Assembly (NCBI RefSeq): GCF_032164335.1
Contig: NZ_CP134152.1
Location: 1,240,001 to 1,304,000 of the forward strand
Source of the DNA: Winslowiella toletana
Lineage (GTDB): Bacteria > Pseudomonadota > Gammaproteobacteria > Enterobacterales > Enterobacteriaceae
DNA length: 64,000 nt
Direction: 5' to 3'
How positions within the stretch are numbered: the first letter of the stretch is position 1; each line of letters begins with the position of its first letter. The position numbers were made by a program, and so were the translations under genes. Of the stretch, positions 2,283 through 62,608 are shown piece after piece. The notes beneath the pieces were generated by a model. That model saw nothing but the letters and a program-made list of their open reading frames with translations. It did no database searches and was not told the origin of the DNA.

Positions 2283-2301
2283 TTTCAGTCACTGAGAAAA
2301 C

Positions 2302-5460: not shown

Positions 5461-5477
5461 GTATCAGCGGCTCCTGT

Positions 5478-46367: not shown

Positions 46368-46444
46368 GCGCCCTTAGCTCAGTTGGATAGAGCACCGGCC
46401 TTCTAAGCCGTAGGTCACAGGTTCGAATCCTGTAGGGCGTACCA
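46368..46444 (+). tRNA. argU: tRNA-Arg (anticodon TCT)
   Basis: 77 nt including an encoded CCA. The acceptor stem GCGCCCT/AGGGCGT, D stem GCTC/GAGC, T stem ACAGG/CCTGT and T loop TTCGAAT all fold normally. The anticodon loop CTTCTAA gives TCT, which decodes the rare AGA (and AGG) codons. The outermost anticodon-stem pair is C27 opposite U43 (stem CCGGC against GCCGT), a mismatch where E. coli has A-U. The 3' part serves as the attachment site for the following element. Position after folD corresponds to argU of E. coli. Confidence 0.96.
46426..46444 (+). repeat. Left attachment site (attL) in the tRNA 3' end
   Basis: AATCCTGTAGGGCGTACCA (19 bp) recurs with a single base change at 62440-62458. 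It spans the T-arm and acceptor 3' strand through CCA, so integration leaves the tRNA intact. Confidence 0.9.
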
Positions 46445-46610: not shown

Positions 46611-47825
46611 TTGAAACTCAATGCCCGCACAGTGGACACTTCCAAGGCCAGAGATAAAGCCTACAAGCTCTCTGACGGCGGCGGTCTTTACCTTCTCGTT
46701 AACACCAATGGATCACGCTACTGGCGCTTAAAGTATCGCGTTGCGGGAAAAGAAAAGCTGCTGGCGTTGGGGGTATATCCTGATGTATCTCTGGCTGATG
46801 CCAGAACAAAGCGTGACGAAGCAAAGCGTACTTTGGCTGCTGGTGGTGATCCGGGCGAAGTTAAACAGGCAGAAAAGCAGGCTAAGATTCTGGCCGTCAG
46901 CAACAGCTTTGAGGCGCTGGCGATTGAATGGCACGAGCATAAGCGCCCTAACTGGTCACAGGGCTATGCCAGCGATATTCTGGAATACCTGCAGAAAGAT
47001 GTTTTCCCGTTTATCGGTAAGCGTGCCATTGCAGAAATCAAAGCGGCAGAAATGCTGCTGGTGCTCAGAAAGATGGAGCAGCGCGGCGTTCTGGATAAGC
47101 TGAAGAAAACTCGTCAGGCTTGCCGCCAGATTTTTACCTATGCCGTTATCACTGGCAGGGCAGAGCATAACCCTGTGACCGATCTCGCCAGCGCACTCAA
47201 AGCGCCAAAGCAAAAGCATTTTCCTCATCTTCTTACCGAGCAGATTGGGGGCTTCCTTCGTGCACTTAGTGAATATACGGGCAGTAGGGTTACACAAAAT
47301 GCCACCCGGCTACTGATGCTTACTGGCACGCGCACGATTGAATTGCGTGCCGCGGAATGGGCTGAATTCGATTTAGAGAAAGGAATCTGGCAAATACCTG
47401 CAGAGCGGATGAAGATGCGCCGCCCTCATGTAGTGCCGCTTTCCATCCAGGTTAAATCTCTCCTTGAAGAAATCCACCAGCTGACGGGAAGAGGGCGCTT
47501 TGTATTCCCGGGGCGCAACGATGCCGGTAAGACAATGAGCGAAGCCAGTATCAATCAGGTGATAAAACGTATCGGCTATGACGGTAAAGCTACCGGTCAT
47601 GGTTTCCGGCACACCATGAGCACCATTCTGCATGAGCAGGGTTACAACACTGCCTGGATTGAAACGCAGCTGGCTCACGCCGATAAGAACAGCATTCGCG
47701 GTACCTATAACCACGCCCAATATCTGGACGGCCGCAGAGAAATGCTTCAGTGGTATGCCGACTATATGGATGCGCTGGAAAAGGGCGATAACGTGGTTCA
47801 CGGTTCGTTTGGGAAACGCGCTTAA
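46611..47825 (+). CDS. P4-type tyrosine integrase
   Basis: 404 aa starting at TTG 46611 (MKLNARTVDTSKARDKAYKL is the usual N-terminus of P4-type integrases). An ATG at 46595 is out of frame. The N-terminal DUF4102 domain (about 1-85) binds arm sites, followed by a core-binding domain. Catalytic residues lie in LTGTRTIELRAAEW (Arg about 240), HGFRHTMSTIL (His-x-x-Arg about 330), QLAHADKN (His) and GTYNHAQY (Tyr about 365). Inserts and excises the element at the adjacent tRNA. An inverted arm-type site sits at its start. Confidence 0.96.
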   Translation: MKLNARTVDTSKARDKAYKLSDGGGLYLLVNTNGSRYWRLKYRVAGKEKLLALGVYPDVSLADARTKRDEAKRTLAAGGDPGEVKQAEKQAKILAVSNSFEALAIEWHEHKRPNWSQGYASDILEYLQKDVFPFIGKRAIAEIKAAEMLLVLRKMEQRGVLDKLKKTRQACRQIFTYAVITGRAEHNPVTDLASALKAPKQKHFPHLLTEQIGGFLRALSEYTGSRVTQNATRLLMLTGTRTIELRAAEWAEFDLEKGIWQIPAERMKMRRPHVVPLSIQVKSLLEEIHQLTGRGRFVFPGRNDAGKTMSEASINQVIKRIGYDGKATGHGFRHTMSTILHEQGYNTAWIETQLAHADKNSIRGTYNHAQYLDGRREMLQWYADYMDALEKGDNVVHGSFGKRA

Positions 47826-47895
47826 CTGGATGGATAGACAGCCTCAGTAGACCACAGTAGACTGTTCTGGACATTATGTGACTTGGGGGTTGTAC

Positions 47896-48618: not shown

Positions 48619-48833
48619 TAAACGGTGCCACTATTGCTAAGGAAAGGGGGTACCAATCTGATTAGCGCAAAATTTCAAGCCATTTTGGCCGCCGTTAAAC
48701 TCAGAAACGGTAGGCCCCTTTATCTTTTTGCCTCGAAATAATGGTGGGCACACGAAAAAATAACACCCATCTATATTGCCTGTTTTTTTAGTGTAATTAT
48801 CTCGTAAACCGCAATAGACGTTACGAGGTAAAT

Positions 48834-49031: not shown

Positions 49032-49450
49032 TGGAAAAGAAAAACCGCCCATCACAGGCGGCTAATCAGGGAGCTGACGTCTCTGATATTACGCCTGCCG
49101 CAGTCATTAAGCCAACCCCAAAGAAACACCGCGCTCGCGTTTACATGATGCGTACTGGCGTTAATGGCTTCACTGAGAACGAGATTCTCCGCTACTGCTG
49201 CTTGTCCAGCGCCCGTAATTACGCGACTGAGCTGGAAAGAAGGCTTGATATTCGCCTGGAGCGCATTGACGAGCCTAATGGTGATGGCATCGGTAGCCAC
49301 TTCCGTTACCGGATCACCTGCCGCGCTGACGTGATGCGAGTGATTCAACTGGTTAATAGTAATGCCGCTGCTGGTGGATATACCGGCCTGTCTCGGCGTG
49401 AGATTAACGACATTCTTTCTCTCTACCCGGATGCGTTCAACGCCGCTTAA
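49031..49450 (+). CDS. Hypothetical phage-type protein (winged-helix-like)
   Basis: 139 aa. The N-terminal 40 residues are polar and Pro-rich. The rest (about 42-139) looks like a winged helix: ARVYMMRTGVNGFTENEILR, CLSSARNYATELERRLDIRL and a beta-wing with HFRYRITCRADVMRVIQLV. I do not know a family name. It begins on the last base of alpA and lies 13 bases before the antirepressor gene, so it belongs to the regulatory operon. Confidence 0.7.
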   Translation: MEKKNRPSQAANQGADVSDITPAAVIKPTPKKHRARVYMMRTGVNGFTENEILRYCCLSSARNYATELERRLDIRLERIDEPNGDGIGSHFRYRITCRADVMRVIQLVNSNAAAGGYTGLSRREINDILSLYPDAFNAA

Positions 49451-49463
49451 CGGAGCCTGATAA

Positions 49464-50273: not shown

Positions 50274-50500
50274 TACAACCGTCCAGATGAAAGGCTTCCC
50301 GCTGGCTCGCCTGTTAGCAAAAGTTAGCCTAGGGAACCTCACAAAACCTGACATCCACTCAGCCGAAAATTTGGCTTTGTGCCTGACAGCGGCTAGCTCC
50401 ATGCTGTGTAAGGTAGTGTCTTACACTAGTGGTGCGGGTTATCACAAACACTTAAAAAACCGCTTGCCCTCTCCGCAAACTTCGGACTATCCTCATCTTG

Positions 50501-50578
50501 CACTGGCAAAATCCAGTGCCGGGATTGGTCTCCCGGTAATCACAAAGGCGACACACGACGCGCCTGGCGTCTTTTTTT
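50501..50578 (+). promoter_or_regulatory. Leader hairpins and terminator of the immunity region (seqA-like target)
   Basis: Three hairpins in a row. CACTGG/CCAGTG is at 50501-50518. CCGGGA/TCCCGG at 50519-50536 shows TTGGTC in its loop. GACGC/GCGTC at 50557-50571 is followed by seven T (50572-50578), an intrinsic terminator. The loop TTGGTCT (50525-50531) and CACAAAGG (50541-50548) are complementary to segments of the C4-like RNA encoded just downstream. This is the P4 layout in which CI RNA pairs with the leader to force early termination. Confidence 0.75.
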
Positions 50579-50630
50579 GTGTCCTCGATCTGTCTCACCC
50601 TTTTTTCAGCAATGCGGGTATAATCCGCGT

Positions 50631-50730
50631 CGCTTACAGAGTAATGGTGGGCTGGGTGGTGGCTTCTTCGGAAGCGCCGGTTTCCTTTGTGTCCGGTAAG
50701 ACCAACTCCGCTCAGTCCACCACCAGCAAG
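50631..50730 (+). ncRNA. C4/CI-type antisense RNA (phage immunity)
   Basis: Preceded by a perfect TATAAT at 50619-50624. The RNA can fold as a closed multi-branch structure: GGTGG (50646-50650) with CCACC (50717-50721), a UUCG-capped stem GCTTC/GAAGC (50662-50675), and CCGG/CCGG around a loop. The loop TCCTTTGTGT (50683-50692) is perfectly complementary over 10 bases to 50762-50771, the ribosome-binding site of the icd-like gene. AGACCAA (50699-50705) is complementary to TTGGTCT at 50525-50531 and at 50732-50738. The exact ends are inferred. Confidence 0.75.
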
Positions 50731-50781
50731 ATTGGTCTCTTCGGTGGTGGTTGCAAAAATCACACAAAGGAGGCTGCCACC

Positions 50782-50979
50782 ATGGCTACTACCCTCATCC
50801 AAGCCACACCCAAATTTCAGTTTCGCTTTCTGGCTCTGTCACGCGCTGACATGCTGGCTAAACCGTGCCGCGTCTCCGTTGAGGCCGCCAGCGAGAAAGA
50901 AGCCCGCCGCGTTCTGGCACCCAATTTCATTCTTTCATTAGCTGCCCGCCTGCCGGTTCAGGAGGTGGCTCATGCGTGA
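50782..50979 (+). CDS. Icd-like host cell division inhibitor
   Basis: 65 aa: MATTLIQATPKFQFRFLALS, then a basic middle (CRVSVEAASEKEARRVLAP) and NFILSLAARLPVQ. This matches the Icd-like proteins that accompany C4 RNA in P1- and P4-like elements; P1 Icd blocks cell division. ATG 50782 follows the strong site AAAGGAGG (50766-50773). The frame is open back to 50266, but that part lies across hairpins, a terminator and the C4 RNA, so I do not take it as protein. Translation should be blocked when the C4 RNA pairs with its ribosome-binding site. Confidence 0.82.
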   Translation: MATTLIQATPKFQFRFLALSRADMLAKPCRVSVEAASEKEARRVLAPNFILSLAARLPVQEVAHA

Positions 50980-51304
50980 TAACAACCTTTCTTCGTACAA
51001 AGACAGCGTGCGCCGCGTTTTGGCTGTAGTTGGCCGTGAATCTGCGCCTCTTCCCGCCACGGCAGAGAACATTTCACGCGACCGACTGCTGCGTGCGCAG
51101 GCTGGTTTATGTCACCTGCTGACGGAAGTGATCCCCAACACATCCTCCGAGCTTCTGCGCGAAGAGGTTTATCGCTGGGTGGAAGAAATCCATAACCTGA
51201 CCCGCTTTGAAGAGTGCGATGCGCAAAGAGAATCCAGGACGCACAAAGTCTCAGTCGATGCTGGCCGCAATTTTAAAGACAAGGAAGGGCAGGCCAAACA
51301 ATGA
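50972..51304 (+). CDS. Hypothetical protein in primase operon (110 aa)
   Basis: 110 aa, soluble and helical, with no signal. Contains RDRLLRAQAGLCHLLTEVIP followed by TSSELLREEVYRWVEEIHNL. No family recognised, although similar small genes precede the primase in P4-like elements. It overlaps both the icd-like gene (8 bases) and the next gene (4 bases), so it is made from the same mRNA. Confidence 0.7.
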   Translation: MRDNNLSSYKDSVRRVLAVVGRESAPLPATAENISRDRLLRAQAGLCHLLTEVIPNTSSELLREEVYRWVEEIHNLTRFEECDAQRESRTHKVSVDAGRNFKDKEGQAKQ

Positions 51305-51657
51305 CGCTAATTACTAAAAACTTCCGACTTAATGCGCTGGCGAACCAGTATTCAACAGCAATTTATGACCATCTCAAACGGCAGAGCGGTGGCGACTGGT
51401 TCCCGATGGAAATTAAAGGCCAGCGGGTTGAGGTTGCCATTGTGGACGGTTCAGCCGGTATCAGGCTGCTGGTGGATAGCTATCTGCTTGAGCCGATAAA
51501 GCAGGAATATCCGCACTGGGAGGCACTGGCGGGCAATCTGCTGACCCTCTGCACAGACGGCGGCAGCCTCACTGAGCGCGGTGAAAGCATCTGGCAGAGC
51601 ATGATTAATGACATGAGCACCTCTCTTTCTAAAGGGGAGGTGAGTTTCCATGCGTAA
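51301..51657 (+). CDS. Hypothetical protein in primase operon (118 aa)
   Basis: 118 aa, soluble. Recognisable as a P4-satellite-type small protein (N-terminus TLITKNFRLNALANQYSTAI, core FPMEIKGQRVEVAIVDGSAG), but I cannot name a function. The ATGA overlap with the gene before and the 8-base overlap with the primase gene show tight coupling. A role in replication control is possible only by position. Confidence 0.7.
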   Translation: MTLITKNFRLNALANQYSTAIYDHLKRQSGGDWFPMEIKGQRVEVAIVDGSAGIRLLVDSYLLEPIKQEYPHWEALAGNLLTLCTDGGSLTERGESIWQSMINDMSTSLSKGEVSFHA

Positions 51658-54433
51658 CTATGACCTTATTCGGGAGACGACGACCGCCGCGGCTGACCGC
51701 TGGCCGATGGTACTGAGCCAGCTGGGCATTGACGTACACCATTCACCCCGCCAGCACACATCATGCCCCGCCTGTGGCGGTAAAGATCGCTTCCGTTTCG
51801 ATGATAAAGGGCGCGGTAGTTTTTTCTGCAACCAGTGCGGCGCGGGTGATGGCTTAGACCTGATCCAGAAGGTTAATCAGTGCGGCACCACTGAGGCCGC
51901 CCGCATGGCGGCTGATGTGCTGGGTATTGATTACCGGGCGACAGAAACAGACCAGAAAGCCGCCAACCAGAGAAGGCAGCAGCTGGATGAGCAGCGCCAC
52001 CAGCATGAGCAGGAGCGCCAGCAGAAGGAAGTCGAAGAAGCAAAACAGCGCCGCGAAAGCTTTGTGGGCCACTATCAGAGGCTCGCAGCGCAAACCAGGG
52101 CAGGCGAAAGCGAATATCTGATTGCCAGAGGGCTGAACGGCTTCACGCTGCCTGGCTTGCCCGATGGTTCAATTCTGCTGCCGCTGGTGGACGAATCCGG
52201 CGATGTGGCCGCAGCACAGACCATCACGCCGCAGGGTGAAAAGAAAGTGCTCTATGGCTCAGCCAAGCGCGGAGCGTGGCACCTCGTTAACCAGCCGCAG
52301 GAAGTGAAGGAAATCATCATTGGTGAAGGGCTGGCAACAACCCTCACCGCTCACCTAATGCGGCCTGATGCGCTGGCAGTGGTGGCGCTTGATGCCGGTA
52401 ATCTGCCACCCGTCGCGGAGGCTATGCGCAGCCTGTATCCGAATGCCACGTTCATCATTGCCGGTGATAACGACTGGCATGAGCCAGGGGAACTTGATGC
52501 CAACGGTAAGCCGAAGGTGAACAGCGGCAAGGTGTTTGCTGAAAGAGCCGCCGAAGCCGTCAATGGCTCAGTGTCATTACCCCCGACCCGCTACAAAGCG
52601 GACTGGGACGATTACCGTCAGCAAAACGGACTGGAAGCAGCAGCAAAATATTTTGCATCTGGAATGTATCAACCGCAGGAGGAAAACATGGGCGCTCAAC
52701 TGGAAGTGATTAAAGGCGGTAAAACAGCAGCGCCGGATCGTGATGCGCTCAAACCACGCATTGAAAGCCGTCAGGATGGTGTGTACTGGGTTGAGCCAAA
52801 CACCGATAAGCAGACCGGTGAAATCATCAACCGCGAAAGCTGGCTGTGTTCCCCTCTACAGGTTATCGGCACCGGGCGCGATGATAAAGAGCAGTTTCTG
52901 ATTCTGCGCTGGCAGGCATGGGGGCCAGACAGTGAAACCATACAGGCAATCCCGCTGGCTGACATCGGCGAACGTGAGGGATGGAGAACGCTCAAAGCTG
53001 GTGGCGTGAACGTCACAACCAAAAGCGGCCTGAGAGCGATTCTGGCGGACTGGCTACAGCGTAATGGATCACGAGAAGTCTGGAGAGTGGCGCATGCTAC
53101 AGGGTGGCAGTGCGGTGCTTATATCATGCCGGATGGGGAGGTTATCGGCACACCCGATAAGCCAGTACTCTTCAATGGCCGCAGTTCTGCCGCAGCTGGT
53201 TACACCTGCCGGGGAAGCGCAGAGAGCTGGGGTCAAAATGTTGGGGCGCTGGCTGCCGGTAATTATTCGATGATGACAGGCGTTGCTGCCGCGCTAGCTG
53301 CGCCCCTGATTGGCCTGGCGGGTGCGGATGGCTTCGGCATTCACTTCTATGAGCAATCAAGCGCCGGTAAAACCACAACCGCGAACGTTGCCAGCAGCCT
53401 GTACGGTAATCCTGACCAGCTGCGCCTGACGTGGTATGGCACCGCATTAGGGCTGGCTAACGAAGCTGCCGCCCACAACGATGCGTTGATGCCGCTAGAT
53501 GAGGTGGGGCAGGGCGCTGATCCAGTCAGCGTCTCACAGTCTGCCTATGCGCTGTTCAACGGTGTGGGGAAACTGCAGGGGGCCAAAGAAGGCGGCAACC
53601 GTGACCTGAAGCGCTGGCGCACCGTGGCTATCAGTACAGGTGAGATGGATTTAGAAACATTCATCGCTATGGCCGGGCGAAAAGCCAAAGCGGGCCAGCT
53701 GGTCAGGCTCCTGAATATACCGCTGAGTAAGGCTGTGAGATTCCACCAGCATGAGAACGGCAAACAGCACGCCGACGCGCTGAAGGATGCCTGGCAGAAT
53801 CACCACGGCGCAGCAGGCCGGGAATGGATTAAGTGGTTAGCTGGCAATCAGCAACAGGCCACCGAGGCTGTCAGGGAGGCAGAGACGCGCTGGCGCGGCT
53901 TAATACCGGCAGAATACGGCGAGCAGGTTCATCGCGTGGGCGCTCGCTTTGCCATTCTTGAGGCTGCGCTGCTGATGGGGCGGGTTATCACGGGATGGGA
54001 TGAGCAAACCTGCCGTGACGCCGTTCAGCACAGCTATAACGCATGGGTGAGAGAGTTTGGTACCGGCAACAAAGAGCATCAGCAAATCATTGCTCAGTGC
54101 GAAGCATTTCTGAACGCCAATGGCTTCAGCCGGTTCGCCCCATTCCCGTATGACCCTCAATCGCTACCAATCCGTGAGATGGCGGGCTATCGCGCCAGCG
54201 GCAGCCATGAAGATGATCCCATCGTGTTTTACACCTTCCCGGCAACGTTTGAGCAGGAGATCGCCAGCGGTTTCAACCCGAAGCAGTTCGCGCGCGTGCT
54301 GGTGGAAAGCGGAATGATGACACCACCAGCCAGCGGCAGAGGCTTTCAGCGTAAGTCACCGAGGATTAACAAGCGGCAGTACAACGTTTATGTCATCCAG
54401 TACCGGCCAGAGGATGAGGCAGGCGAGGATTAA
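51650..54433 (+). CDS. P4-alpha-like primase/helicase
   Basis: 927 aa. Replication protein of the satellite. An N-terminal zinc ribbon has Cys39/Cys42 and Cys60/Cys63 (CPACGGKDRFRF, FFCNQCGAGDG). A Gln/Glu-rich coiled coil follows (about 100-140). A Toprim primase domain has IIIGEGLATTLTAHL (Glu about 226) and IIAGDND (about 273-279). A DUF927-type helicase domain carries Walker A SSAGKTTTAN (about 570) and a Walker-B-like LPLDEVGQG (about 615). A basic C-terminal part may bind origin DNA. By analogy with P4 alpha it should recognise the iterons that lie directly after the gene and at 61.6 kb. Confidence 0.94.
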   Translation: MRNYDLIRETTTAAADRWPMVLSQLGIDVHHSPRQHTSCPACGGKDRFRFDDKGRGSFFCNQCGAGDGLDLIQKVNQCGTTEAARMAADVLGIDYRATETDQKAANQRRQQLDEQRHQHEQERQQKEVEEAKQRRESFVGHYQRLAAQTRAGESEYLIARGLNGFTLPGLPDGSILLPLVDESGDVAAAQTITPQGEKKVLYGSAKRGAWHLVNQPQEVKEIIIGEGLATTLTAHLMRPDALAVVALDAGNLPPVAEAMRSLYPNATFIIAGDNDWHEPGELDANGKPKVNSGKVFAERAAEAVNGSVSLPPTRYKADWDDYRQQNGLEAAAKYFASGMYQPQEENMGAQLEVIKGGKTAAPDRDALKPRIESRQDGVYWVEPNTDKQTGEIINRESWLCSPLQVIGTGRDDKEQFLILRWQAWGPDSETIQAIPLADIGEREGWRTLKAGGVNVTTKSGLRAILADWLQRNGSREVWRVAHATGWQCGAYIMPDGEVIGTPDKPVLFNGRSSAAAGYTCRGSAESWGQNVGALAAGNYSMMTGVAAALAAPLIGLAGADGFGIHFYEQSSAGKTTTANVASSLYGNPDQLRLTWYGTALGLANEAAAHNDALMPLDEVGQGADPVSVSQSAYALFNGVGKLQGAKEGGNRDLKRWRTVAISTGEMDLETFIAMAGRKAKAGQLVRLLNIPLSKAVRFHQHENGKQHADALKDAWQNHHGAAGREWIKWLAGNQQQATEAVREAETRWRGLIPAEYGEQVHRVGARFAILEAALLMGRVITGWDEQTCRDAVQHSYNAWVREFGTGNKEHQQIIAQCEAFLNANGFSRFAPFPYDPQSLPIREMAGYRASGSHEDDPIVFYTFPATFEQEIASGFNPKQFARVLVESGMMTPPASGRGFQRKSPRINKRQYNVYVIQYRPEDEAGED

Positions 54434-54456
54434 TCCTCACATGTGAGACAAATGTT

Positions 54457-54567
54457 GTTGGTTCAGTTGGTTCAGTTGGTTCATTTGTTTCCATGCTCTG
54501 ATTTATAAAGAGTTTTATCTAAAAACTGAACCAACACTGAACCAACAAATGGCTGTTTTGAACCAAC
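54457..54567. repeat. Iteron cluster 1, candidate replication origin (ori/crr)
   Basis: Three head-to-tail copies of GTTGGTTCA (54457-54465, 54466-54474, 54475-54483) face three inverted copies TGAACCAAC (54527-54535, 54538-54546, 54559-54567) across an AT-rich centre (54484-54526). It lies just after the primase gene. P4 replicates from ori and needs a second site, crr, both bound by alpha; a matching second cluster is at 61636-61755. Confidence 0.75.
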
Positions 54568-54605
54568 AAACTCAGCGTAATACATGTTTATTCAGGACGT
54601 CGCGC

Positions 54606-54875
54606 ATGGTAAATGACAAAAAAGCAGAAGAACTTGAGGCGAAAGGCCTGTACAGAAGAGCGGCCTCTCGCTGGCTGGAAGTGTTTGACCAATGTGGCAC
54701 TGAATCCGGTCGTGAATGGCTCAGAAACCGGCGTAATGAATGTCTGGCGAAGCGCGTCAGGCACGCTGTGGTTATCGAGTCATTTGGTGATGTGACCAGA
54801 GCGGCAGCAGACACACAGCGCAGGATGGGCTTAGCCAAGACGGGTGGTGAAGCATTCAGATTAAAAATGAAGTGA
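54606..54875 (+). CDS. PerC-family transcriptional regulator
   Basis: 89 aa from ATG 54606. The PerC pattern is clear: EELEAKGLYRRAASRWLEVF, then GREWLRNRRNECLAKRV. PerC proteins are small regulators encoded on phages and plasmids; the founding member activates LEE1 in enteropathogenic E. coli, and phage homologues can act on host genes. A longer frame from 54549 would begin inside the iterons. Targets here are unknown. Confidence 0.85.
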   Translation: MVNDKKAEELEAKGLYRRAASRWLEVFDQCGTESGREWLRNRRNECLAKRVRHAVVIESFGDVTRAAADTQRRMGLAKTGGEAFRLKMK

Positions 54876-54978
54876 GTTATCCATCGAGGAAGACCGGAAA
54901 ACAAAGGTGTAACAACAATTGCAATGTTAATAATTATTGATAGGATGTTTCCGATTGCAATTAATGGAAATATAAATA

Positions 54979-55335
54979 ATGAAAAAGGTTTTGGCAGTGG
55001 CGCTTGGGGCGCTATTACTTTCGGGATGTACTGTGCGTGTTGCTGATATGACTGTCGCAAGTACCAAAAACTACAATCTGAACGCAGCTAAGTTTGAGAA
55101 AGGTGCTCGCGTTACCGGCGAAGATAAAGCGCCAATCGTAATTTTCCCTTTAGGTATTCCGAACGTTAAAACGGCGATGGATCATGCTATTGAGAAAGAT
55201 AAGTGTGCGGTAGGACTGAGTGACGTGGTTATCTACCAGTTAAACCACGCCTTCCTCTTCGGCACCTACGGTTTCCGTGTTGAGGGAACGCAAATCATCG
55301 ATAAATCACAGATGGGATGTGAAAACCACATCTGA
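54979..55335 (+). CDS. Phage-type lipoprotein (118 aa)
   Basis: 118 aa. The signal ends LLLSGCTV (lipidated Cys17). The sequence VRVADMTVASTKNYNLN, followed by KGARVTGEDKAPIVIFPLGI, is a pattern common in enterobacterial prophage and chromosomal lipoproteins without known function. Two further Cys (AIEKDKCAVGL and QMGCENHI) may form a disulphide. It has its own AT-rich promoter region upstream and a terminator directly after, so it is an independent cargo-like gene, likely expressed in the integrated state. Confidence 0.82.
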   Translation: MKKVLAVALGALLLSGCTVRVADMTVASTKNYNLNAAKFEKGARVTGEDKAPIVIFPLGIPNVKTAMDHAIEKDKCAVGLSDVVIYQLNHAFLFGTYGFRVEGTQIIDKSQMGCENHI

Positions 55336-55339
55336 TCCT

Positions 55340-55363
55340 AAGCCACCTTCGGGTGGCTTTTTC
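55340..55363 (+). terminator. Intrinsic terminator after first lipoprotein gene
   Basis: The stem is AAGCCACC (55340-55347) with GGTGGCTT (55352-55359), a TTCG tetraloop and a T-run. It is a strong classical terminator. Confidence 0.9.
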
Positions 55364-55377
55364 TATGGGGCAAGGAA

Positions 55378-56517
55378 ATGAAAAAGTCTATTCTGGCATG
55401 TCTTATATTTGTGTTCATTTTGACAGGATGTGGCCCAAAGGAGCTTTCTCCTGAAGAGAAACAAAAGGTCGAGCAACTCAAGGTGGAATTATCACAAACA
55501 GAAAGTGATATTTCGTCTGCGAATGCCGCAAATCAGAACTACTCTGGCGGGCTGATCAAGACATTAATCAGCGCCAGAGTGGAAATTCTCAAAACAAACC
55601 AGGCGCTAATTAAGCAGCGAATTGATGCTATTGAATCAGGCGCAAAAATAACAATGGATGTGCCAGGAGCAAAACCTGATGAGGCGACGGCTGAGTCAGT
55701 TAAGAGCGAAATAGATGCGTTAAATGCTCAGATTTCTCAGGCTAAAGCAGAAGCCAACCAGTATAGCGGTGGCCTGGTTCTTGCGATGAAACTGGCAGCA
55801 ATCGCAACTCAGGAGCAAACCATGGCGATGCTTCAACAACGCTATTTGTCAGCCAAGTATGGACTTGCTAACGCTATGCCATCTGATTTGAAGCAGGGCA
55901 ATGTTGCTGAAGCAAAGAAAATCGATAAACCAGCTCAGGCTAGCAATAATCAGCCATTACTCCCGCCGGGAGATGGGCCATTTGGCTTGGAGTCAGGTTT
56001 AAGCAAAAAGAATATCGAAGATATGACCGGTGAAGAGCTCAAGCCCTATGAGGGCGTGCCAAATCTCTATACGGTAAAATCTCCACCGAAAAAGAACGCT
56101 GAATTTGAGGGTTTTGGTCTATTAATTTCGCCAAAGTCTGGCCTATGCCAAATCAGAGCGTTAGGTAAAAATATTGATACAGACAGCTATGGACTTGCGC
56201 TCCAGTCAAAATACAAAGAGCTTATGGATTCTCTATCTTCAATCTATGGCAAACCTAAAAGTACCGATTTTTTACTTTCAGGTTCAATCTGGAAAGAACC
56301 TCAAGACTGGATGATGGCGCTAAACAAAAAGGAACGTTTCCTCTCAGCCCAATGGGAAGGATCGCCCGCAATACCTCTCAAAAACAAACTTGCATTGGTA
56401 TCCATGGAAGCTAGAGCCAATAGCTCTGGCAAAGGGTATGTTTTCCTTCAGTATGATTTTGACAACATAGATGCTTGCAACGCGGAGATTGAGGACGTCA
56501 AGAAAAGCTCGTTATAA
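55378..56517 (+). CDS. Lipoprotein with internal repeat and coiled coil (379 aa)
   Basis: 379 aa. The signal ends FILTGCGP (lipidated Cys18). Residues 20-160 form a helical region with an internal duplication: ANQNYSGGLIKTLISARVEI recurs as ANQYSGGLVLAMKLAAIATQ. A Pro-rich linker (about 185-200) leads to a globular C-terminal domain with one Cys pair (GLCQIRAL, IDACNAEIE). No family recognised. It begins 15 bases after the terminator of the preceding lipoprotein gene and ends before another terminator, so it is a stand-alone cargo gene for the cell envelope. Confidence 0.78.
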   Translation: MKKSILACLIFVFILTGCGPKELSPEEKQKVEQLKVELSQTESDISSANAANQNYSGGLIKTLISARVEILKTNQALIKQRIDAIESGAKITMDVPGAKPDEATAESVKSEIDALNAQISQAKAEANQYSGGLVLAMKLAAIATQEQTMAMLQQRYLSAKYGLANAMPSDLKQGNVAEAKKIDKPAQASNNQPLLPPGDGPFGLESGLSKKNIEDMTGEELKPYEGVPNLYTVKSPPKKNAEFEGFGLLISPKSGLCQIRALGKNIDTDSYGLALQSKYKELMDSLSSIYGKPKSTDFLLSGSIWKEPQDWMMALNKKERFLSAQWEGSPAIPLKNKLALVSMEARANSSGKGYVFLQYDFDNIDACNAEIEDVKKSSL

Positions 56518-56567
56518 ACCTTCTTCTCTATGTTGCTATATAAGCGCTTATAAAATTTTTCAGCCAC

Positions 56568-56591
56568 ACCTCGCTTCGGCGAGGTTTTTTA
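56568..56591 (+). terminator. Intrinsic terminator after second lipoprotein gene
   Basis: The stem is ACCTCGC (56568-56574) with GCGAGGT (56579-56585), a TTCG loop and a T-run. Confidence 0.88.
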
Positions 56592-56705
56592 TAAGTAAAA
56601 AATTCGATCGAAACGATCAAATCACCGTTTCATAAATCGGCATATAAAAAATAAGCATTTCACTTACTGCAATTATAATCACTGTATATTTATCAGGAGG
56701 TGATT

Positions 56706-56879
56706 ATGATTCCGACTCGCGTTAAGCCCGTACTTCTCAGCATTGAACAACTCGAAGCACTTCGCAAAATTCAGGAGCAGGAGCGCGCCAAATCCGTGCT
56801 GGGCGTGGCTCCAACCATCCATGTTATTGCTCGCGGACTAATGGATAAAGCGCTCGCACAATTGGCGCAGGAGGCTTAA
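56706..56879 (+). CDS. Small hypothetical protein (57 aa)
   Basis: 57 aa beginning MIPTRVKPVLLSIEQLEALR and ending MDKALAQLAQEA; probably one helical DNA-binding-like or regulatory unit. It has an excellent ribosome-binding site, AGGAGG at 56695-56700, five bases before the ATG. The AT-rich stretch upstream contains TATAAT-like elements. Its stop overlaps the next start (TAATG). Family not recognised. Confidence 0.65.
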   Translation: MIPTRVKPVLLSIEQLEALRKIQEQERAKSVLGVAPTIHVIARGLMDKALAQLAQEA

Positions 56880-56947
56880 TGGAACAACTTCAACGCCTAG
56901 CTGAAGCCATTGCAGAAACTTACATTCGCGATCTTCAGCGCGTTTGA
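56879..56947 (+). CDS. Very small ORF coupled to previous gene (22 aa)
   Basis: MEQLQRLAEAIAETYIRDLQ plus two residues. The start overlaps the stop of the preceding 57-aa gene (TAATG), which suggests translational coupling. A single amphipathic helix. It may be a real micro-protein or a coupling relay; no homologue is recognised. Confidence 0.35.
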   Translation: MEQLQRLAEAIAETYIRDLQRV

Positions 56948-56978
56948 GCAGATCCCATTTTAAATCAGGAGATATCAC

Positions 56979-57137
56979 ATGAATTTAGAACAGAAATTTG
57001 CAGTGTTAGAGGCCGAGTTAGCTGAGATTAAATCGCAGCTGAAAGCACCTGAAGAGCTGGCAAAGATTGTGCGTGAAACCACAATCGAAACGATTAAGAA
57101 CGCCCAGCGCCCCGGTGGTTTGCTCCACAAAAAGTAA
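56979..57137 (+). CDS. Small coiled-coil protein (52 aa)
   Basis: 52 aa: MNLEQKFAVLEAELAEIKSQ, then KIVRETTIETIKNAQR. The N-terminal heptads predict a coiled coil. AGGAG at 56967-56971 lies seven bases before the ATG. Similar short coiled-coil proteins precede terminase-type genes in phages, but no function is known. Confidence 0.6.
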   Translation: MNLEQKFAVLEAELAEIKSQLKAPEELAKIVRETTIETIKNAQRPGGLLHKK

Positions 57138-57247
57138 TCTGAACGGTCGCAGGGACGCGACTCCTAGACAGCCGGCAAATTATTTTGCTGATTGGTTCGT
57201 TGAGAATGGTTAAGTGGTAACGAGTAATAGCGAGAGGTGGCATACAC

Positions 57248-57682
57248 ATGCCTGACAGCACGAAAGAACAGGCCAGTCGTGACAAGGGCGGCAAATGGAA
57301 GAAAGGAGCATCGGGTAATCCCGGTGGGCGCAGCAGCAAGGCGGCTGAGTTGAGACGCGTGCTGGAAGGTGGTGCTGATGATGCCGTTAAAACCATCATG
57401 GATGCGGCTAAAGATGGTGATATGGCAGCCTGCCGTCTCATCCTGGACAGAGTAGTCCCGCCGAGCAAGCCAGTATATCAGCCGGTTTCGTTTGAGCTGG
57501 ACGATAGCGATTTACCTGCAGCGGCACGTTCTGTGGTGAAGGCGATCGCCGCAGGAGAACTGCCCGCCGACCAGGGGAAAATGATTCTGGATGGTCTGGC
57601 GAACATGGCGAAGATTATCGAAATTTCAGAGCTGGCTGAGCGTCTCGCTGAGCTGGAAAAAGCACAGGAGAGAAATCAATGA
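57248..57682 (+). CDS. DUF5681-domain phage protein (possible small-terminase-like)
   Basis: 144 aa. The N-terminus has the DUF5681 signature KGGKWKKGASGNPGGRSSKA. Helical middle and C-terminus (ELRRVLEGGADDAVKTIMDA, ISELAERLAELEKAQERNQ). DUF5681 proteins often sit next to terminase genes and are suspected to act in DNA recognition for packaging; that is a family association, not proof. Its stop overlaps the next start (ATGA). Confidence 0.75.
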   Translation: MPDSTKEQASRDKGGKWKKGASGNPGGRSSKAAELRRVLEGGADDAVKTIMDAAKDGDMAACRLILDRVVPPSKPVYQPVSFELDDSDLPAAARSVVKAIAAGELPADQGKMILDGLANMAKIIEISELAERLAELEKAQERNQ

Positions 57683-57897
57683 GCCTGCTAAGACGAATAG
57701 AAGCATTAGAGGCCACTATCGGCGCTCAGACCACCAGCAGCGGCCCCAATGAAATCTGGCTCATCGGTGTCAGCCCGGACGGCTCCCGCGAGTGTGGCGG
57801 CGGCTGGGTGAAGGATAAAGGGCAATTCCGTATTGCCACCACTGATGAGGCTCATCGACATAACTTAAACATCCTGCAGGCTGGTCATCATGAGTAA
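57679..57897 (+). CDS. Small phage-type protein (72 aa)
   Basis: 72 aa starting MSLLRRIEALEATIGAQTTS. Its opening (LLRRIEALEA) resembles that of the next gene (LLARLNRLEK), hinting at a shared origin of the two N-termini. The C-terminal part is beta-like (EIWLIGVSPDGSRECGGGWV). It overlaps both neighbours, so it is part of a tight operon. Function unknown. Confidence 0.65.
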   Translation: MSLLRRIEALEATIGAQTTSSGPNEIWLIGVSPDGSRECGGGWVKDKGQFRIATTDEAHRHNLNILQAGHHE

Positions 57898-58111
57898 TTT
57901 ACTGGCGAGATTGAACCGGCTGGAAAAGGCCATGGTGACCAAAGATGGCGATGTGCAGGTGATTTCTGCACTGATGGATGAGTTAGCTGGTAATGCCCCT
58001 GCAGGGACTTATGAGTGCGCTGTTGAGAGGCTTTCTCGCCGCGGCAATTCATTCCCACAATCGGCAGAGCTGAAGGCGTTGCTGGTGGGTGACGGCAGCG
58101 AACAGATATAG
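57890..58111 (+). CDS. Small phage-type protein (73 aa)
   Basis: 73 aa starting MSNLLARLNRLEKAMVTKDG. Acidic middle (VQVISALMDELAGNAPAGTY), no membrane segment. It overlaps the previous gene by eight bases. Function unknown; the operon context suggests a link with the DUF5681 protein. Confidence 0.62.
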   Translation: MSNLLARLNRLEKAMVTKDGDVQVISALMDELAGNAPAGTYECAVERLSRRGNSFPQSAELKALLVGDGSEQI

Positions 58112-58189
58112 CGCGATTAGCATTAAGGTTCGCACTAACTGCCCTACCCCATGAATACCTGACAAAAGTTAACTTTGAGGTGAAACGAG

Positions 58190-58507
58190 ATGGACAGCAG
58201 AGCGGAACTACTCAAGCAGCTGAAAGCCTACCACCAGCGCCAAAAAGAGCGCTTCGACAGATGGCAGGCGTCAGGGTATCGACAAGAATTAAAGCCGATA
58301 CATGAACCGATGCCGGATGAATTACTCCACATCCCATGCGCGGCGAAGACCAGAGCCGGAACGCCGTGCAAGCGAACTGACATCAGCACCAACGGGCGCT
58401 GCAAGTATCATGGTGGTCACAGTACGGGCGCATTAACAGCAGAAGGTAAAGCCCGTCAGCTGGAAGGCTATCGGCGTTGGCAGCAAGAAAGGGCAGGGAG
58501 CCTGTAG
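58190..58507 (+). CDS. HGGxSTG-domain protein
   Basis: 105 aa. The conserved core CAAKTRAGTPCKRTDISTNG is followed by RCKYHGGHSTG: three Cys and two His arranged as a probable zinc-binding knuckle. A C-terminal GKARQLEGYRRWQQERAG follows. HGGxSTG proteins occur in phages and islands near terminase-like genes; the role is unknown. The first 45 residues are helical and charged. Confidence 0.8.
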   Translation: MDSRAELLKQLKAYHQRQKERFDRWQASGYRQELKPIHEPMPDELLHIPCAAKTRAGTPCKRTDISTNGRCKYHGGHSTGALTAEGKARQLEGYRRWQQERAGSL

Positions 58508-58632
58508 ATGTTGGCATTCAAGCGGCCTGACCAGAAAGGGTTCACACGCAGCGAGAACGATAAATTGCTGATGACTATTTCAAGCGAAAAGTTAAAAGGC
58601 TTGCGAAAGCTCTATACCCACAACAAATTAAA

Positions 58633-59013
58633 TCATTTATCAGCTTCGTTTTCTTTGGTAGTTAGGATGAGCTTAGTGGCACCTTCTAAAGATTTTGAAA
58701 GCTCAGCTTGGCTCATCCCGGTAGCTTTGAATTTGAAGCCATCCTTTTCTACTATGATTGACTTGTGTTTATGTCGCCGAGTAAAGGCCAAAATAGCACC
58801 AGCAACCGTAGTCCAGAAATACTCTGATTTGAGCACTAGGATTAGTATCTGCTTCACTTCTTCAGCACTATTGACGACAAAATCATAGCCGCTTCTTTTC
58901 TCTATAGAGCCTTTTAAATCAGGAACATATTTAATGTCGTTTTCTTTAAGAGTCGCGCAAAAAGCTACTGCTATTTCAGATGGTAAAGAAACTTTCAAAG
59001 GAGCTTTGTTCAT
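58633..59013 (-). CDS. Hypothetical membrane-anchored protein (126 aa)
   Basis: 126 aa from ATG 59013, with AGGTGA just upstream; a GTG three codons earlier is also open. A hydrophobic segment near residues 60-78 (EYFWTTVAGAILAF) could be one membrane helix. The soluble C-terminus is Lys-rich. It is AT-rich and on the opposite strand from its neighbours, like a moron gene inserted in the element. The opposing frame at 58508-58888 is taken as its shadow. Function unknown. Confidence 0.6.
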   Translation of the reverse strand: MNKAPLKVSLPSEIAVAFCATLKENDIKYVPDLKGSIEKRSGYDFVVNSAEEVKQILILVLKSEYFWTTVAGAILAFTRRHKHKSIIVEKDGFKFKATGMSQAELSKSLEGATKLILTTKENEADK

Positions 59014-59616
59014 AAAAATCACCTATGAGAAATGGGGGGCGAGACTTAGAGCCTTTAGTATTTTTTCCAAAGCCGCATTCTCAGCAATCATACTAAATTG
59101 TGTTTTTATGACATTGATGTAAATGATTGGACACGCGATATGGACAAGCGAGAGAGTAATCCTAATCGTGAGGCTCGAAAATCCTGACAGATGATCAGTG
59201 GTTCGTCGGATACCCATTGACGCCACAAGCCGTATTTAGCATAAAGAACACCTGAACGTTCACTGTAAAAAAGCCAGATGCGCAACGATTGACTGACAAA
59301 AAATAGAGATGACACTGCTACAATTGCCCGCCAGAGCAGTAAGCCCCTGGACAAGCACATGCTCTACACTATCCATATTAGAGTGACTTAGGTTCCACAG
59401 GCGAAAGAGCAGCATCGGCAGAGGATGAACGCGACGGGGTTCTGCTGGAAGAACCTCAGAGATTCAAACGGCAGCTTAAAATGTACGCGTATTGACGCCG
59501 TCATTGTTATAATATAAATAATTATACTGATCACACATACAGTAGCTATGACCGAACTGGTTACTGTAAAGTGAAAGAAGTTACTTTTAAGCCACTCATT
59601 GGATAGCCAGAAAACT
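59014..59616. other. 600-base region without a convincing gene, upstream of the DprA-like gene
   Basis: Minus-strand frames of 84 and 85 codons exist (59106-59360, 59388-59645), but neither has a good ribosome-binding site or known family. The second would overlap the DprA-like start. Around 59494-59530 the DNA is AT-rich with TTGACG and TATAAT-like sequences (too closely spaced to be a pair), probably the promoter zone of the cargo operon. The rest may be decayed coding DNA. Confidence 0.45.
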
Positions 59617-60510
59617 ATGTCACTACTTGATTTCGCATCACACAACTCATTCGAGCGAGCCGTGTCTCCTTTCCGGGAGATGGCTGCTTACGAGGCATTG
59701 TGGACGGAACAAGGCGCAACCTTCAAAACGATTGCCGATAAGTTTCGTCATGCTCACGGTGACCTCTTACCGTCTGAACTGGTTCCTGATAGCACGATCG
59801 ATACCTTTAAATCGAAGCTGAAGAGCATTCTCGATAAATACAACGTTGAGGATTTTGGTGTGCGTGTGCATGGAGCTGGAGAATATCCAGAAAAGCTACG
59901 TGACGCTCGTCATCCCATAGAAGTTCTCTACTATCAGGGTTGGTGGGACTTAGTGAATACTCCTTCAGTGGCGGTAGTTGGTTCGCGCAAAGTATCTGAG
60001 GAAGGGGTGAGAAGGACACGTAAGTTGGTTAAGTGCCTAGTTAATGACGGGTTTACAATCGTGTCAGGTTTAGCTGAAGGCGTAGATACTTGTGCGCATC
60101 AAACCGCGCTGGAAATGGGTGGTAAAACCATTGCTGTTATAGGTACCCCACTTTCTCATAACTATCCAAAACAGAATGTTGGTCTGCAAAAGACGATTAG
60201 AGAAAACTATCTGCTTATCAGTCAGGTTCCATTCCAACGCTATCTGGATCAAGACTTTCGCAGTAATCGTATTTTCTTCCCAGAGCGTAACATAACGATG
60301 TCTGCCTTAACTAAAGCAACAATCATTATTGAGGCATCAGACACGTCCGGTACTCTGACACAAGCAAGAGCTGCGCTGGCGCAAGGCAGGAAGCTGTTTA
60401 TTTTGGAATCATGTTTCCAAAACCCCTCTATCTCATGGCCTGCAAAGTATGAAGCTCAAGGTGCTATCAGAGTTAAGAGCTATGAAGATGTTCGGGAGCA
60501 TCTGAAATGA
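59617..60510 (+). CDS. DprA-like (SLOG/Rossmann) protein
   Basis: 297 aa from ATG 59617 (a TTG at 59599 is also in frame). Residues 1-115 form an N-terminal extension unlike chromosomal DprA. Residues 116-265 form the DprA Rossmann core: VAVVGSRKVSEEG (GSR 122-124), VSGLAEGVDTCAHQTAL, TIAVIGTPLSHNYP, FPERNITMSALTKATIIIEA and SGTLTQARAALAQG. The C-terminal winged helix of typical DprA is absent. DprA binds ssDNA and loads RecA; related SLOG proteins bind nucleotides. Its stop overlaps the next start (ATGA), so the two proteins are made together. Probable cargo. Confidence 0.85.
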   Translation: MSLLDFASHNSFERAVSPFREMAAYEALWTEQGATFKTIADKFRHAHGDLLPSELVPDSTIDTFKSKLKSILDKYNVEDFGVRVHGAGEYPEKLRDARHPIEVLYYQGWWDLVNTPSVAVVGSRKVSEEGVRRTRKLVKCLVNDGFTIVSGLAEGVDTCAHQTALEMGGKTIAVIGTPLSHNYPKQNVGLQKTIRENYLLISQVPFQRYLDQDFRSNRIFFPERNITMSALTKATIIIEASDTSGTLTQARAALAQGRKLFILESCFQNPSISWPAKYEAQGAIRVKSYEDVREHLK

Positions 60511-61154
60511 CATTCCGTTTAACCAAAATTGATGAGTTAAAACGTCCTGATCATCATCATCTTGACGATGAAGATAACTGCTATTTTTTTGGTGAGTACA
60601 CCGCGCGTAAAGGTTTTAGGCATAGCGAAACTAACCAGCTAATTTGGAACTTAAAAAAAGGGAATGATAAGCGTGGTAGCTACGAATACCGGTTCAAGGG
60701 CCAAGCAATTCAGCAGGTGGCCACCTTAATTACTCAAACTATTGGCAACCTTCATGATTACACATTCGTACCAGTACCGCCGTCTAAATGCCGCACTGAC
60801 CCAGCTTATGACGATCGGATCTCTGATATTTTAAGAGCCTGCCATCAACGTAACGGAAACCTACAGTTTCGCGAACTTGTTACACAGCGGTTATCAATGG
60901 GCGCGTCACACAATTCAGTGGCTCGTCCGTCGCCTGCTCAAATAGCTGCTAATTATCAATTCGATCAAACAATCACAGTTGGCATTAGAAATACAATTGT
61001 CATTTTTGATGATGTCCTCACCGCAGGTAGCCACTTCAAAGCTATGAAAGATACCATACGGTACCATCTACCAAACGTGGGAATTATGGGCCTGTTTATC
61101 GCTAGGACTGAAAGACATTCAGACTTGATAGCTGATTCCGATTTAGAGGATTAG
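60507..61154 (+). CDS. ComF-like phosphoribosyltransferase-fold protein
   Basis: 215 aa. The type I PRTase PRPP loop is IVIFDDVLTAGSHFKAMKDT (about 164-183), with the ComF-like motif FVPVPPSK (87-94) followed by DDRI. The N-terminal 85 residues lack the Cys-rich zinc finger of competence ComF, but contain an acidic/His cluster (RPDHHHLDDEDN). Start overlaps the stop of the DprA-like gene by four bases. ComF-DprA pairing is known from natural transformation, but here both genes are inside a mobile island, so a defence or nucleotide-linked role is inferred. Confidence 0.8.
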   Translation: MTFRLTKIDELKRPDHHHLDDEDNCYFFGEYTARKGFRHSETNQLIWNLKKGNDKRGSYEYRFKGQAIQQVATLITQTIGNLHDYTFVPVPPSKCRTDPAYDDRISDILRACHQRNGNLQFRELVTQRLSMGASHNSVARPSPAQIAANYQFDQTITVGIRNTIVIFDDVLTAGSHFKAMKDTIRYHLPNVGIMGLFIARTERHSDLIADSDLED

Positions 61155-61160
61155 TAGCCA

Positions 61161-61568
61161 TCATGCACGCTTTGAATCTCTTCTCTTCCACGCACTAAAT
61201 ATGTCCTTATCCCATGCCTTGCCTGCCTTAGTCTGATAGCCAGCGTCGTTAAGCCGTTCTGCGATGATGCGACCATTATTAAACCCCTGCGCGATTGCCT
61301 CTTCCACAACATGGATCACGGCCTGTTCATCGTATTGTAAAGGAGGGATACCTTGCTTTCCGCCAATCAGAGCAGCCGCCGCGATCTCCATTCGTTCCAC
61401 CAGCGCCATTATGCGCGCGTTAGGGTTGCTTTCTGGCCGGTTCAGCTTTTGGCGGGCAGCATCGACCAGCCAAGCAGTTTTATCGCCACCAGCGGCATTT
61501 ACAGCACTGGTAAAAGCTTCGCTTAAATCACTAGGTACGCGGAAGGTAACAGACAGAGATTTGCTCAT
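61161..61568 (-). CDS. Small protein with RHH-like N-terminus and recombinase-like C-terminus
   Basis: 135 aa. The N-terminus (SLSVTFRVPSDLSEAFTSAV, then DKTAWLVDAARQKL) looks like a ribbon-helix-helix DNA-binding fold. The C-terminus (GRIIAERLNDAGYQTKAGKA, WDKDIFSAWKRR) resembles the helical DNA-binding tail of large serine recombinases. No catalytic Ser region is present. It may be a regulator of the nearby iterons (61636-61755), since it is transcribed away from them; this is inference. It ends six bases from the PRTase gene (convergent). Confidence 0.68.
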   Translation of the reverse strand: MSKSLSVTFRVPSDLSEAFTSAVNAAGGDKTAWLVDAARQKLNRPESNPNARIMALVERMEIAAAALIGGKQGIPPLQYDEQAVIHVVEEAIAQGFNNGRIIAERLNDAGYQTKAGKAWDKDIFSAWKRRDSKRA

Positions 61569-61635
61569 AACACACCAAGTTGGAGGAACAGGCGGCTATT
61601 TTAGCACCGTAAGACAGTGTAAAACATTAAAATGT

Positions 61636-61755
61636 GTTGGTTTAGAATGCCCTGTTGTTGGTTCAATTGGAGATTGTGTTGGTTCACTTTTTTTAAATTA
61701 ATACTTTTAAAACAACCATCTTTACAAATTGAACGAACTGAACCAACTGAACGAC
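61636..61755. repeat. Iteron cluster 2, candidate second replication site (ori/crr)
   Basis: Copies of GTTGGTTCA at 61657-61665 and 61678-61686, with a variant GTTGGTTTA at 61636-61644, face inverted TGAACCAAC at 61739-61747 with a variant TGAACGAAC at 61730-61738 and a partial copy at 61748-61755. A very AT-rich centre lies at 61687-61729. The arrangement mirrors cluster 1 at 54457-54567. Confidence 0.75.
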
Positions 61756-61858
61756 ACGTTTTTGCTTAATTATATAGAGAGAAAAATCCGCATCTTTCTT
61801 ACAATAAGGAAGCGTCATTAGCAAAGCTAATAATCCGTACTCACTACTGCGTTATCTT

Positions 61859-62230
61859 CTAACTTACCCGAACCGCTTCCCCGTCAATCGCGTTTAACTT
61901 GCCGCTATCGTCCCGCATAACCAAACATAAACCGGGAAGACCGTAACGGGAACAGTTACACCATACGCCTTTGCCTGCTCCCGACTGTGTGCTGTCCTGT
62001 CGCTGCTCATAGCTGGTTACCTTTTCCAGCAGCCCATTATTAACCATCGCCTCCAGCGTTCGCCTGGCTGATTCCAAATGATGTCGTGATTTGAATGAGT
62101 CCATGCCACTGAGCAGATATGCGACCCCGGATACATCGAACGGCGGCGCACCAATCTCACACGTTACCCACTCGCGGTGCTCAAGTTCGAAGAAACTCAG
62201 TATCTCTTTTTTACGGCTGGTCATTCTCAT
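61859..62230 (-). CDS. Hypothetical winged-helix-like protein at right end
   Basis: 123 aa starting MRMTSRKKEILSFFELEHRE. The order of segments (KEILSFF..., then SARRTLEAMVNNGLLEKVTS) suggests a winged helix-turn-helix DNA-binding domain. A Cys/Gly-rich stretch (GKGVWCNCSRYGLPG) could bind metal. Similar proteins occur near the right end of P4-like islands, but I know no function. It lies between iteron cluster 2 and the right arm-type sites. Confidence 0.65.
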   Translation of the reverse strand: MRMTSRKKEILSFFELEHREWVTCEIGAPPFDVSGVAYLLSGMDSFKSRHHLESARRTLEAMVNNGLLEKVTSYEQRQDSTQSGAGKGVWCNCSRYGLPGLCLVMRDDSGKLNAIDGEAVRVS

Positions 62231-62358
62231 GGCTGGTGGCTTCCTTAATGTAGGAAAGATCTATCATACAATAAGGGTTTCAGCTTATTGCGTTATGCAG
62301 TGAGTTGAATACGCCTGTTGTGGATAAAAAATAGCCAAAATGAGTTGTCACAAAAACA

Positions 62359-62380
62359 TTTGGGGGTATCTTTGGGGGTA
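62359..62380. repeat. Integrase arm-type sites, right end
   Basis: Two copies of TTTGGGGGTA (62359-62368 and 62371-62380) with 12-base spacing, identical in sequence and spacing to the pair near attL. They lie about 60 bases before attR. Confidence 0.72.
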
Positions 62381-62439
62381 TGTGTGATTTTGAAACTGAT
62401 AAATACTTTTATTTAACATTGGTTTGTTGGTTATTATCC

Positions 62440-62458
62440 AATCCTGTAGGGGGTACCA
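62440..62458 (+). repeat. Right attachment site (attR)
   Basis: AATCCTGTAGGGGGTACCA repeats the last 19 bases of tRNA-Arg with one C-to-G change. It marks the right end of the element. Confidence 0.88.
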
Positions 62459-62473
62459 ATACAATTCAATGAG

Positions 62474-62608
62474 TTACCTTCCTTCTCCTGATTTCAAATT
62501 TACCCCGTGGGACAAATTTGGGACAGAGACATTAAAAATCGCATCAATATGTCGTGCATGCTCGGTTGAGTGGTTCGGTGCCAAATGAGCATAATGCTGT
62601 ACCTGCGT
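62474..62608 (-). pseudogene. C-terminal remnant of a lambda-type integrase
   Basis: The minus strand reads [20 protein letters not shown], then [15 protein letters not shown] and a stop at 62474. This is the end of a tyrosine recombinase, including the catalytic Tyr (QHYAHLAP). Everything upstream is lost: the frame is joined directly to IS-element sequence at about 62608. In E. coli the argU locus carries DLP12 with such an integrase, so this is most likely a relic of an older prophage in the same tRNA. Confidence 0.8.

Follow-up and report, generated by a model that had tools for sequence, protein, structure and literature searches.

A gene pair that encodes a DprA protein and a PRTase guards against the phages T7 and lambda, according to Rousset et al. 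2022, who also pointed to shosTA, syrTA, and rqlHI (PMC9122126; this and the other papers given by PMC number are cited from partial texts). A 2025 paper describes ShosTA as a DprA-like antitoxin with a PRTase toxin and reports its presence on a Pf phage (PMC11878078). In a review that cites Pu et al. 2025, ShosT is both a PRTase and a pyrophosphatase and disturbs purine metabolism, ShosA binds DNA, and T7 Gp0.7 triggers ShosTA (PMC12593503). ShosTA has also been counted among the systems that are activated by phage SSB (PMC10732053), so the published accounts name different triggers. In RqlHI, RqlH needs its PRTase domain for toxicity, RqlI likely binds to that domain, and the domain in isolation is not toxic (PMC4670107). 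Several structures of ShosTA are available (PDB 8zva-8zvd, 9vzo, 9w2p, and 9w2q; 8zva is titled as from E. coli APEC O1), and the HAD-type ShosT was crystallised with PRPP-Mg (8zvc). In the solved ShosT (432 amino acids), a HAD-like N-terminus precedes the PRTase core.

We analysed a 64,000-nucleotide stretch of Winslowiella toletana DNA (the window) that carries a version of this pair in which ShosT is the PRTase core alone. We think it likely that this is a compact DprA-PRTase toxin-antitoxin system of the ShosTA kind on a satellite-like island, with an anti-phage role as its most likely function.

The gene pair and its island

The upstream gene (59617..60510, + strand) encodes a DprA-like protein of 297 amino acids with a DprA-type N-terminal region and a SLOG Rossmann core. 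The downstream gene (60507..61154, +) encodes a protein of 215 amino acids with a type I PRTase fold, and the two reading frames share the bases ATGA. PADLOC identifies the first protein as ShosA (PDLC03961, E = 2.2e-100) and the second as ShosT (PDLC03962, E = 5.3e-49); these matches lie in neighbouring genes, which makes the locus a ShosTA system by the PADLOC models.

In Pfam, ShosA from the window matches DNA_processg_A and, weakly, SLOG. A Pfam scan of ShosT gave zero matches and a search of its own genome with PF00156 did not recover it, so Pfam alone would overlook the PRTase fold. A sequence search of the PDB with ShosT alone found no PRTase, and profile searches of the PDB gave weak PRTase matches (best E = 0.066 and 0.087), so a fold search was needed to recognise ShosT. 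The top fold matches of its structure model (pLDDT 93) are ComFC, which is the closest solved fold by rank, and ShosT (8zvc and 8zvd). The PRTase fold covers residues 1-204 and aligns to residues 164-365 of 8zvc. Nothing in the protein from the window corresponds to residues 1-163 of the solved ShosT (the HAD-like part) or to its tail past residue 365, and Pfam finds no HAD domain in it. The Cys4 zinc finger of ComFC is absent as well (there are three cysteines in total and no CxxC). PADLOC and Pfam gave no helicase or PsyrT match, and by these searches the protein is not a RecQ fusion.

The PRPP loop of ShosT is DDVLTAGSH (residues 168-176; 61008..61034, +; alignments A1 and A3). The residues that are invariant in 36 of 36 ShosT proteins are Y31, N43, N48, K50, K64, P91, S93, D102, R104, H135, R140, D168, D169, G174, A179, G195, and F197; of these, D168, D169, and G174 lie within the PRPP loop. 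T172 is kept in 34 of the 36, and the final position of the loop is histidine in 21. At the equivalent place ComFC has DDIITTGTTL (PMC9005727), and the loop of a HAD-type ShosT (L013) is likewise odd (DDFCTEGNA).

ShosA matches pneumococcal DprA (phmmer, E = 5e-30) more strongly than it matches the solved ShosA (E = 2e-20). It is nearly equally similar to the host's own DprA (34.1% identity), a separate full-length protein that is encoded elsewhere in the genome, and to the HAD-type ShosA of L013 (34.7%). R124 of ShosA is invariant among 36 proteins and K185 is lysine or arginine in 31 of the 36. By alignment, their counterparts in pneumococcal DprA are R115 and K175, which we take to be ssDNA-binding residues. 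The C-terminal winged helix (PF17782) is found in a housekeeping DprA (L002) and is absent from ShosA of the window.

Part of the original prediction for this locus held up: the two overlapping genes, the DprA-type protein that lacks the winged helix, the PRTase with a PRPP loop and no ComF zinc finger, and the placement of the pair in a mobile element. It had also described the N-terminus of the DprA-like protein (about 115 residues) as new, which we rejected, as this region is DprA's own N-terminal domain. Nor is the pairing of DprA with a PRTase new, as had been supposed: the pair is ShosTA, both by PADLOC and by the available text of the published accounts (PMC9122126, PMC11878078, and PMC12593503).

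An alignment of the upstream DNA, from which we picked by eye, contains a candidate promoter site that resembles an extended -10 element (TGTTATAAT, 59505..59513, +). The site is the same in L045, has one change in L042 and L043, and has two changes in L016. A sigma-70 scan of 58500-62500 did not predict this site or any promoter directly upstream of ShosA; it gave 3 sites in this region as compared to 7.4 in shuffled sequences, which is below the level of shuffled DNA. The reading frame that adjoins ShosA (58633-59022, -) matches phrog_12509 (E = 3.7e-20), whose function is not known.

The pair lies in an island that spans 46423-62458 and is integrated at a tRNA-Arg gene (tct; 46368..46444, +; ARAGORN and Rfam). 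The left attachment repeat is the 3' end of this tRNA (46423-46444, +; from a repeat search), and the right repeat (62437..62458, +) is 22 nucleotides long and identical to the tRNA 3' end at 20 of them. The island encodes a tyrosine integrase (46611..47825, +; PHROG and Pfam) and a primase/helicase for its replication (51650..54433, +; phrog_1139 and DUF927), along with AlpA, an AntA antirepressor, and a PerC-like activator (PHROG and Pfam). Rfam places isrK and a C4 antisense RNA at 50500-50577 and 50640-50727 (+), within a reading frame (50266-50979) that may be partly RNA-coding; this region, next to the AntA antirepressor, is a phage-type immunity region. An integrase at a tRNA, AlpA, a P4-type primase, and C4 RNA are marks of P4-like elements. 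All of these are present, and the island looks P4-like in its replication and immunity genes. None of the P4 genes for packaging or capsid sizing (sid, psu, and delta) was named among the PHROG matches of the 19 proteins that were scanned (the island encodes 18 of these and has 3 more reading frames outside the scan).

Two genes at 54979-56517 look lipoprotein-like. The larger has weak lipoprotein matches below the cut-off and a relative (56%) in L040, which carries ShosTA too. For two genes that flank the pair, we retrieved viral relatives: 7 loci for 61161-61568 and 3 loci for 58190-58507.

Linkage, spread, and rates of evolution

With the ShosT model at E ≤ 1e-20, we found matches in 8 of the 392 family genomes, including the window's own, and in 15 at 1e-10; the corresponding figures were 4 of 394 genomes for the order and 3 of 398 for the phylum (these samples overlap, and each contains the window's own genome). 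Six of the 8 family genomes have the compact type (the window's own, G012, G065, G258, G320, and G345, in which the locus is interrupted) and two have the HAD type (G234 and G236). At 1e-10 the model also picks up other PRTases, and some of these loci (L022, L024, and L025) have no clear DprA neighbour. The relatives are patchy among genomes, and many are on phage-like contigs or plasmids. Given this patchy distribution of ShosT, we rejected the idea that it is a housekeeping gene.

The two genes are consistently found together. Among 47 viral contigs that were found with the ShosT alignment, several of which are near copies, 44 have ShosA immediately before ShosT, and the other 3 contigs begin at ShosT. 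(The 44 include a split ShosA in L048, a cut one in L065, and a HAD-type pair in L088.) ShosA is also directly upstream in all 6 of the other compact loci from genomes (L012, L014, L016, L017, L018, and L034). By the start calls that we made, the genes overlap or are at most 11 bases apart. One exception is L035, from the order sample, which has a partial match to the PADLOC ShosT model (E = 6e-31, profile positions 107-229 only); it has no ShosA within flanks of 1.5 kb and was not recovered by the compact ShosT profile. A satellite-like relative that is represented by L018, L040, and L042 (a genome and an IMG/VR contig) has an interrupted ShosT and an intact ShosA. Another record, L026, is titled Chryseobacterium and has the same length and the same pair as a contig of G258, which is from the window's own family, so it is probably mislabelled.

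When we searched E. coli with the pair from L028, an E. coli plasmid pair whose ShosT is 58% identical to that of the window, 37 of 5,426 genomes had at least 80% coverage and 683 of 5,426 had any piece of it. In 40 rows that were spread over the 683 genomes, 3 were full and 37 had only the 3' part of ShosT. Of the three loci that we opened, two (L090 and L091) were partial; in both, a 3' stub of ShosT adjoins remnants of IS66/IS30 and a TOTE-primase gene that is convergent with it.

ShosA was more conserved than ShosT in all 561 comparisons among the 34 loci with both proteins (mean identity of 57.9% versus 38.4%). The distances of the two proteins are correlated across these 34 pairs (Mantel r = 0.83, with 0 of 2,000 permutations as high), which could arise from shared ancestry alone. 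As compared to L014 and L016, which are the 2 of 7 relatives with computable dS, ShosA has a dN of 0.05 at a dS of 1.5-1.7. Antitoxins usually evolve faster than toxins, and the opposite order here counts against a toxin-antitoxin reading. That the DprA half is slow and the PRTase half fast suggests that, besides ShosT, a task facing the host or the DNA constrains ShosA.

Compact and HAD-type lineages

All 36 ShosT proteins of alignment A3 have 211-234 amino acids; A3 was collected with a compact query and so does not gauge the relative frequency of the compact and HAD types. The HAD-type ShosT of L013 (426 amino acids) has the same architecture as the solved protein, with a HAD-like N-terminus and then the PRTase. 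It matches PDLC03012 (E = 3e-215) and ShosT in the PDB (E = 3e-194), while its HAD_2 and PF00156 matches are below the cut-offs. A HAD-type pair (64.9% to L013) is also present in the P2-like phage P24C9.

In an unrooted tree of the DprA partners, the compact group has support of 100/99, the HAD-type partners 100/100, and the housekeeping DprAs 90/88. This 90/88, from the tree without phage DprAs, is also the support for the split between compact plus HAD-type partners and housekeeping DprA; by it, the two types may, but need not, share an origin. In two phages that infect Gram-positive bacteria, phiOH2 (Geobacillus/Thermus) and Vasanti (Gordonia), a PRTase gene comes directly after a gene for DprA (L119 and L120), and their DprAs join the compact clade with support of 98/91 and 99/97 (on long branches). 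An AU test rejected a clade of compact and HAD-type partners with these two phage DprAs outside it (p = 0.0004), which is not proof of an independent origin, because the two phage DprAs are themselves PRTase partners that group with the compact type. The trees used 19 (first tree), 15 (AU test), and 12 (last tree) of the 36 compact ShosA. Besides the host's own gene, we fetched 15 housekeeping DprA loci, of which 10 were tried for the AU test (a motif filter dropped L112, L114, and L115) and 12 for the last tree (L114 was dropped). The last tree excludes L088 and the two phage sequences; L019 and L020 are in the first tree only.

The two types can also be found side by side. A plasmid of Sinorhizobium alkalisoli (L031) has a compact ShosA-ShosT pair (2097-3630) that meets, tail to tail, a DprA-PRTase pair of the HAD type encoded on the opposite strand (3664-5889). 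In other DprA-linked PRTases (L019, L020, L023, and L088) there are zinc ribbons, HAD-like domains, or an N-terminus of unknown kind.

The PADLOC models cover the compact lineage that lacks HAD, and the literature that we consulted, partly as excerpts, does not set it apart. Within that literature, which mostly excludes subscription papers, we recognised no paper on this lineage and found no experiment on it.

Proposed function and comparison with known systems

Our preferred reading, an anti-phage toxin-antitoxin pair, starts from what we observed: the family and fold of the proteins, the conserved active site, the linkage of the genes, their mobile setting, and the lack of a HAD domain. By analogy with the systems that have been studied, the compact lineage would share toxicity, PRPP use, a trigger, antitoxin action, and defence. 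The PRPP-binding toxin would be ShosT, an enzyme of the ComF/PRTase fold; when free, it would drain or alter the nucleotide pool, leading to DNA damage and growth arrest. ShosA would be the antitoxin and probably also the sensor, with a DprA fold whose DNA-binding face is kept; it would hold ShosT back, or repair the damage that ShosT does, up to the point where an infection interferes with DNA or transcription. The original prediction of a defence module agrees with this in that the pair belongs to a named anti-phage family, is patchy, and sits in a mobile element. Its further suggestion, of a PRTase whose product is bound by the DprA fold, is not supported, and we saw evidence neither for nor against a link through a small molecule; the published reading, as given in the texts available, is of a toxin PRTase and a DNA-binding DprA antitoxin.

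The same architecture would also suit a plain addiction module that keeps the island by post-segregational killing and has little or no anti-phage role. Relatives on plasmids and phage-like contigs fit this, as do the E. coli genomes, where pieces of the L028 pair are so much more common than nearly complete copies, as if it were easily lost after fixation. Yet a related pair of DprA and PRTase gives protection from T7 and lambda (PMC9122126). Addiction and defence are compatible, and we consider addiction by itself unlikely. Slightly more plausible, though still improbable, is that the PRTase phosphoribosylates DNA, RNA, or protein rather than free nucleotides, and that ShosA guides it to phage DNA that is single-stranded. 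ComFC, whose fold ranks nearest to that of ShosT, binds ssDNA and PRPP (PMC9005727), ShosA retains residues of the DNA face of DprA, and for RqlH a modification of bases was proposed by Russell and Mulvey (PMC4670107); against this, the published reading of ShosTA is a disturbance of the purine pool (PMC12593503). A capture by the island of competence-type genes for DNA handling would account for the likeness of the folds to DprA and ComFC, but we rejected a competence origin as very improbable, given that the winged helix and the zinc finger are missing, that the host keeps its own dprA, and that the relatives are on phage-like contigs and plasmids. The homologues are thus not mainly housekeeping or competence genes, which the original prediction had named as the finding that would count against it.

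If the toxin-antitoxin reading is correct, then toxicity cannot require a HAD-like domain, because ShosT from the window is a PRTase core only, and we infer that toxicity can rest on this core; the lack of toxicity of the isolated RqlH PRTase domain (PMC4670107) counts against this. The pyrophosphatase activity that was reported for ShosT might be located in the part that is missing here. More tentatively, the compact pairs could have arisen as an anti-phage lineage of their own, one whose bare ComF-like PRTase, with no phosphatase partner, is a toxin that acts on another target than the HAD-type ShosT does. If so, a minimal DprA-PRTase pair would be the common core of ShosTA, PsyrTA/RqlHI, and the phage DprA-PRTase pairs. 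A natural ShosT without the HAD domain, which is found in dozens of viral contigs, lets the question of which part of ShosT is toxic be asked directly, and in the compact pair the sensing of infection by a DprA-like protein, and its control of a PRTase, could be studied in a smaller system.

In comparison to known systems, the pair has the same folds as DprA and ComFC of competence and differs in having neither the winged helix nor the Cys4 zinc finger. It would resemble PsyrTA/RqlHI in that a PRTase toxin part is restrained by a DprA-related partner (for RqlHI, PMC4670107), but RqlH has a RecQ-family helicase domain and ShosT from the window, at 215 amino acids, has no helicase. Like the E. 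coli pair from a P2 hotspot, which is carried by a phage and protects against T7 and lambda (PMC9122126), it is a cassette of DprA and PRTase. The pair that Rousset et al. tested was probably of the HAD type and so unlike ours, given that their Figure 5 legend names HAD, in the portion of the paper available, and that phage P24C9 has a HAD-type pair. From the HAD-PRTase type of ShosTA (PDLC03012/PDLC02997), the pair differs in that its ShosT has no HAD-like part and its ShosA falls in the separate compact group. The ShosTA kind is thus already known and named, and it is the architecture that differs, as a HAD-less version. The DprA-linked PRTases would be modular toxins built around one PRTase core, and the comparison suggests that the conserved unit is DprA plus PRTase, to which helicase, HAD, or zinc-ribbon parts were added in some lineages.
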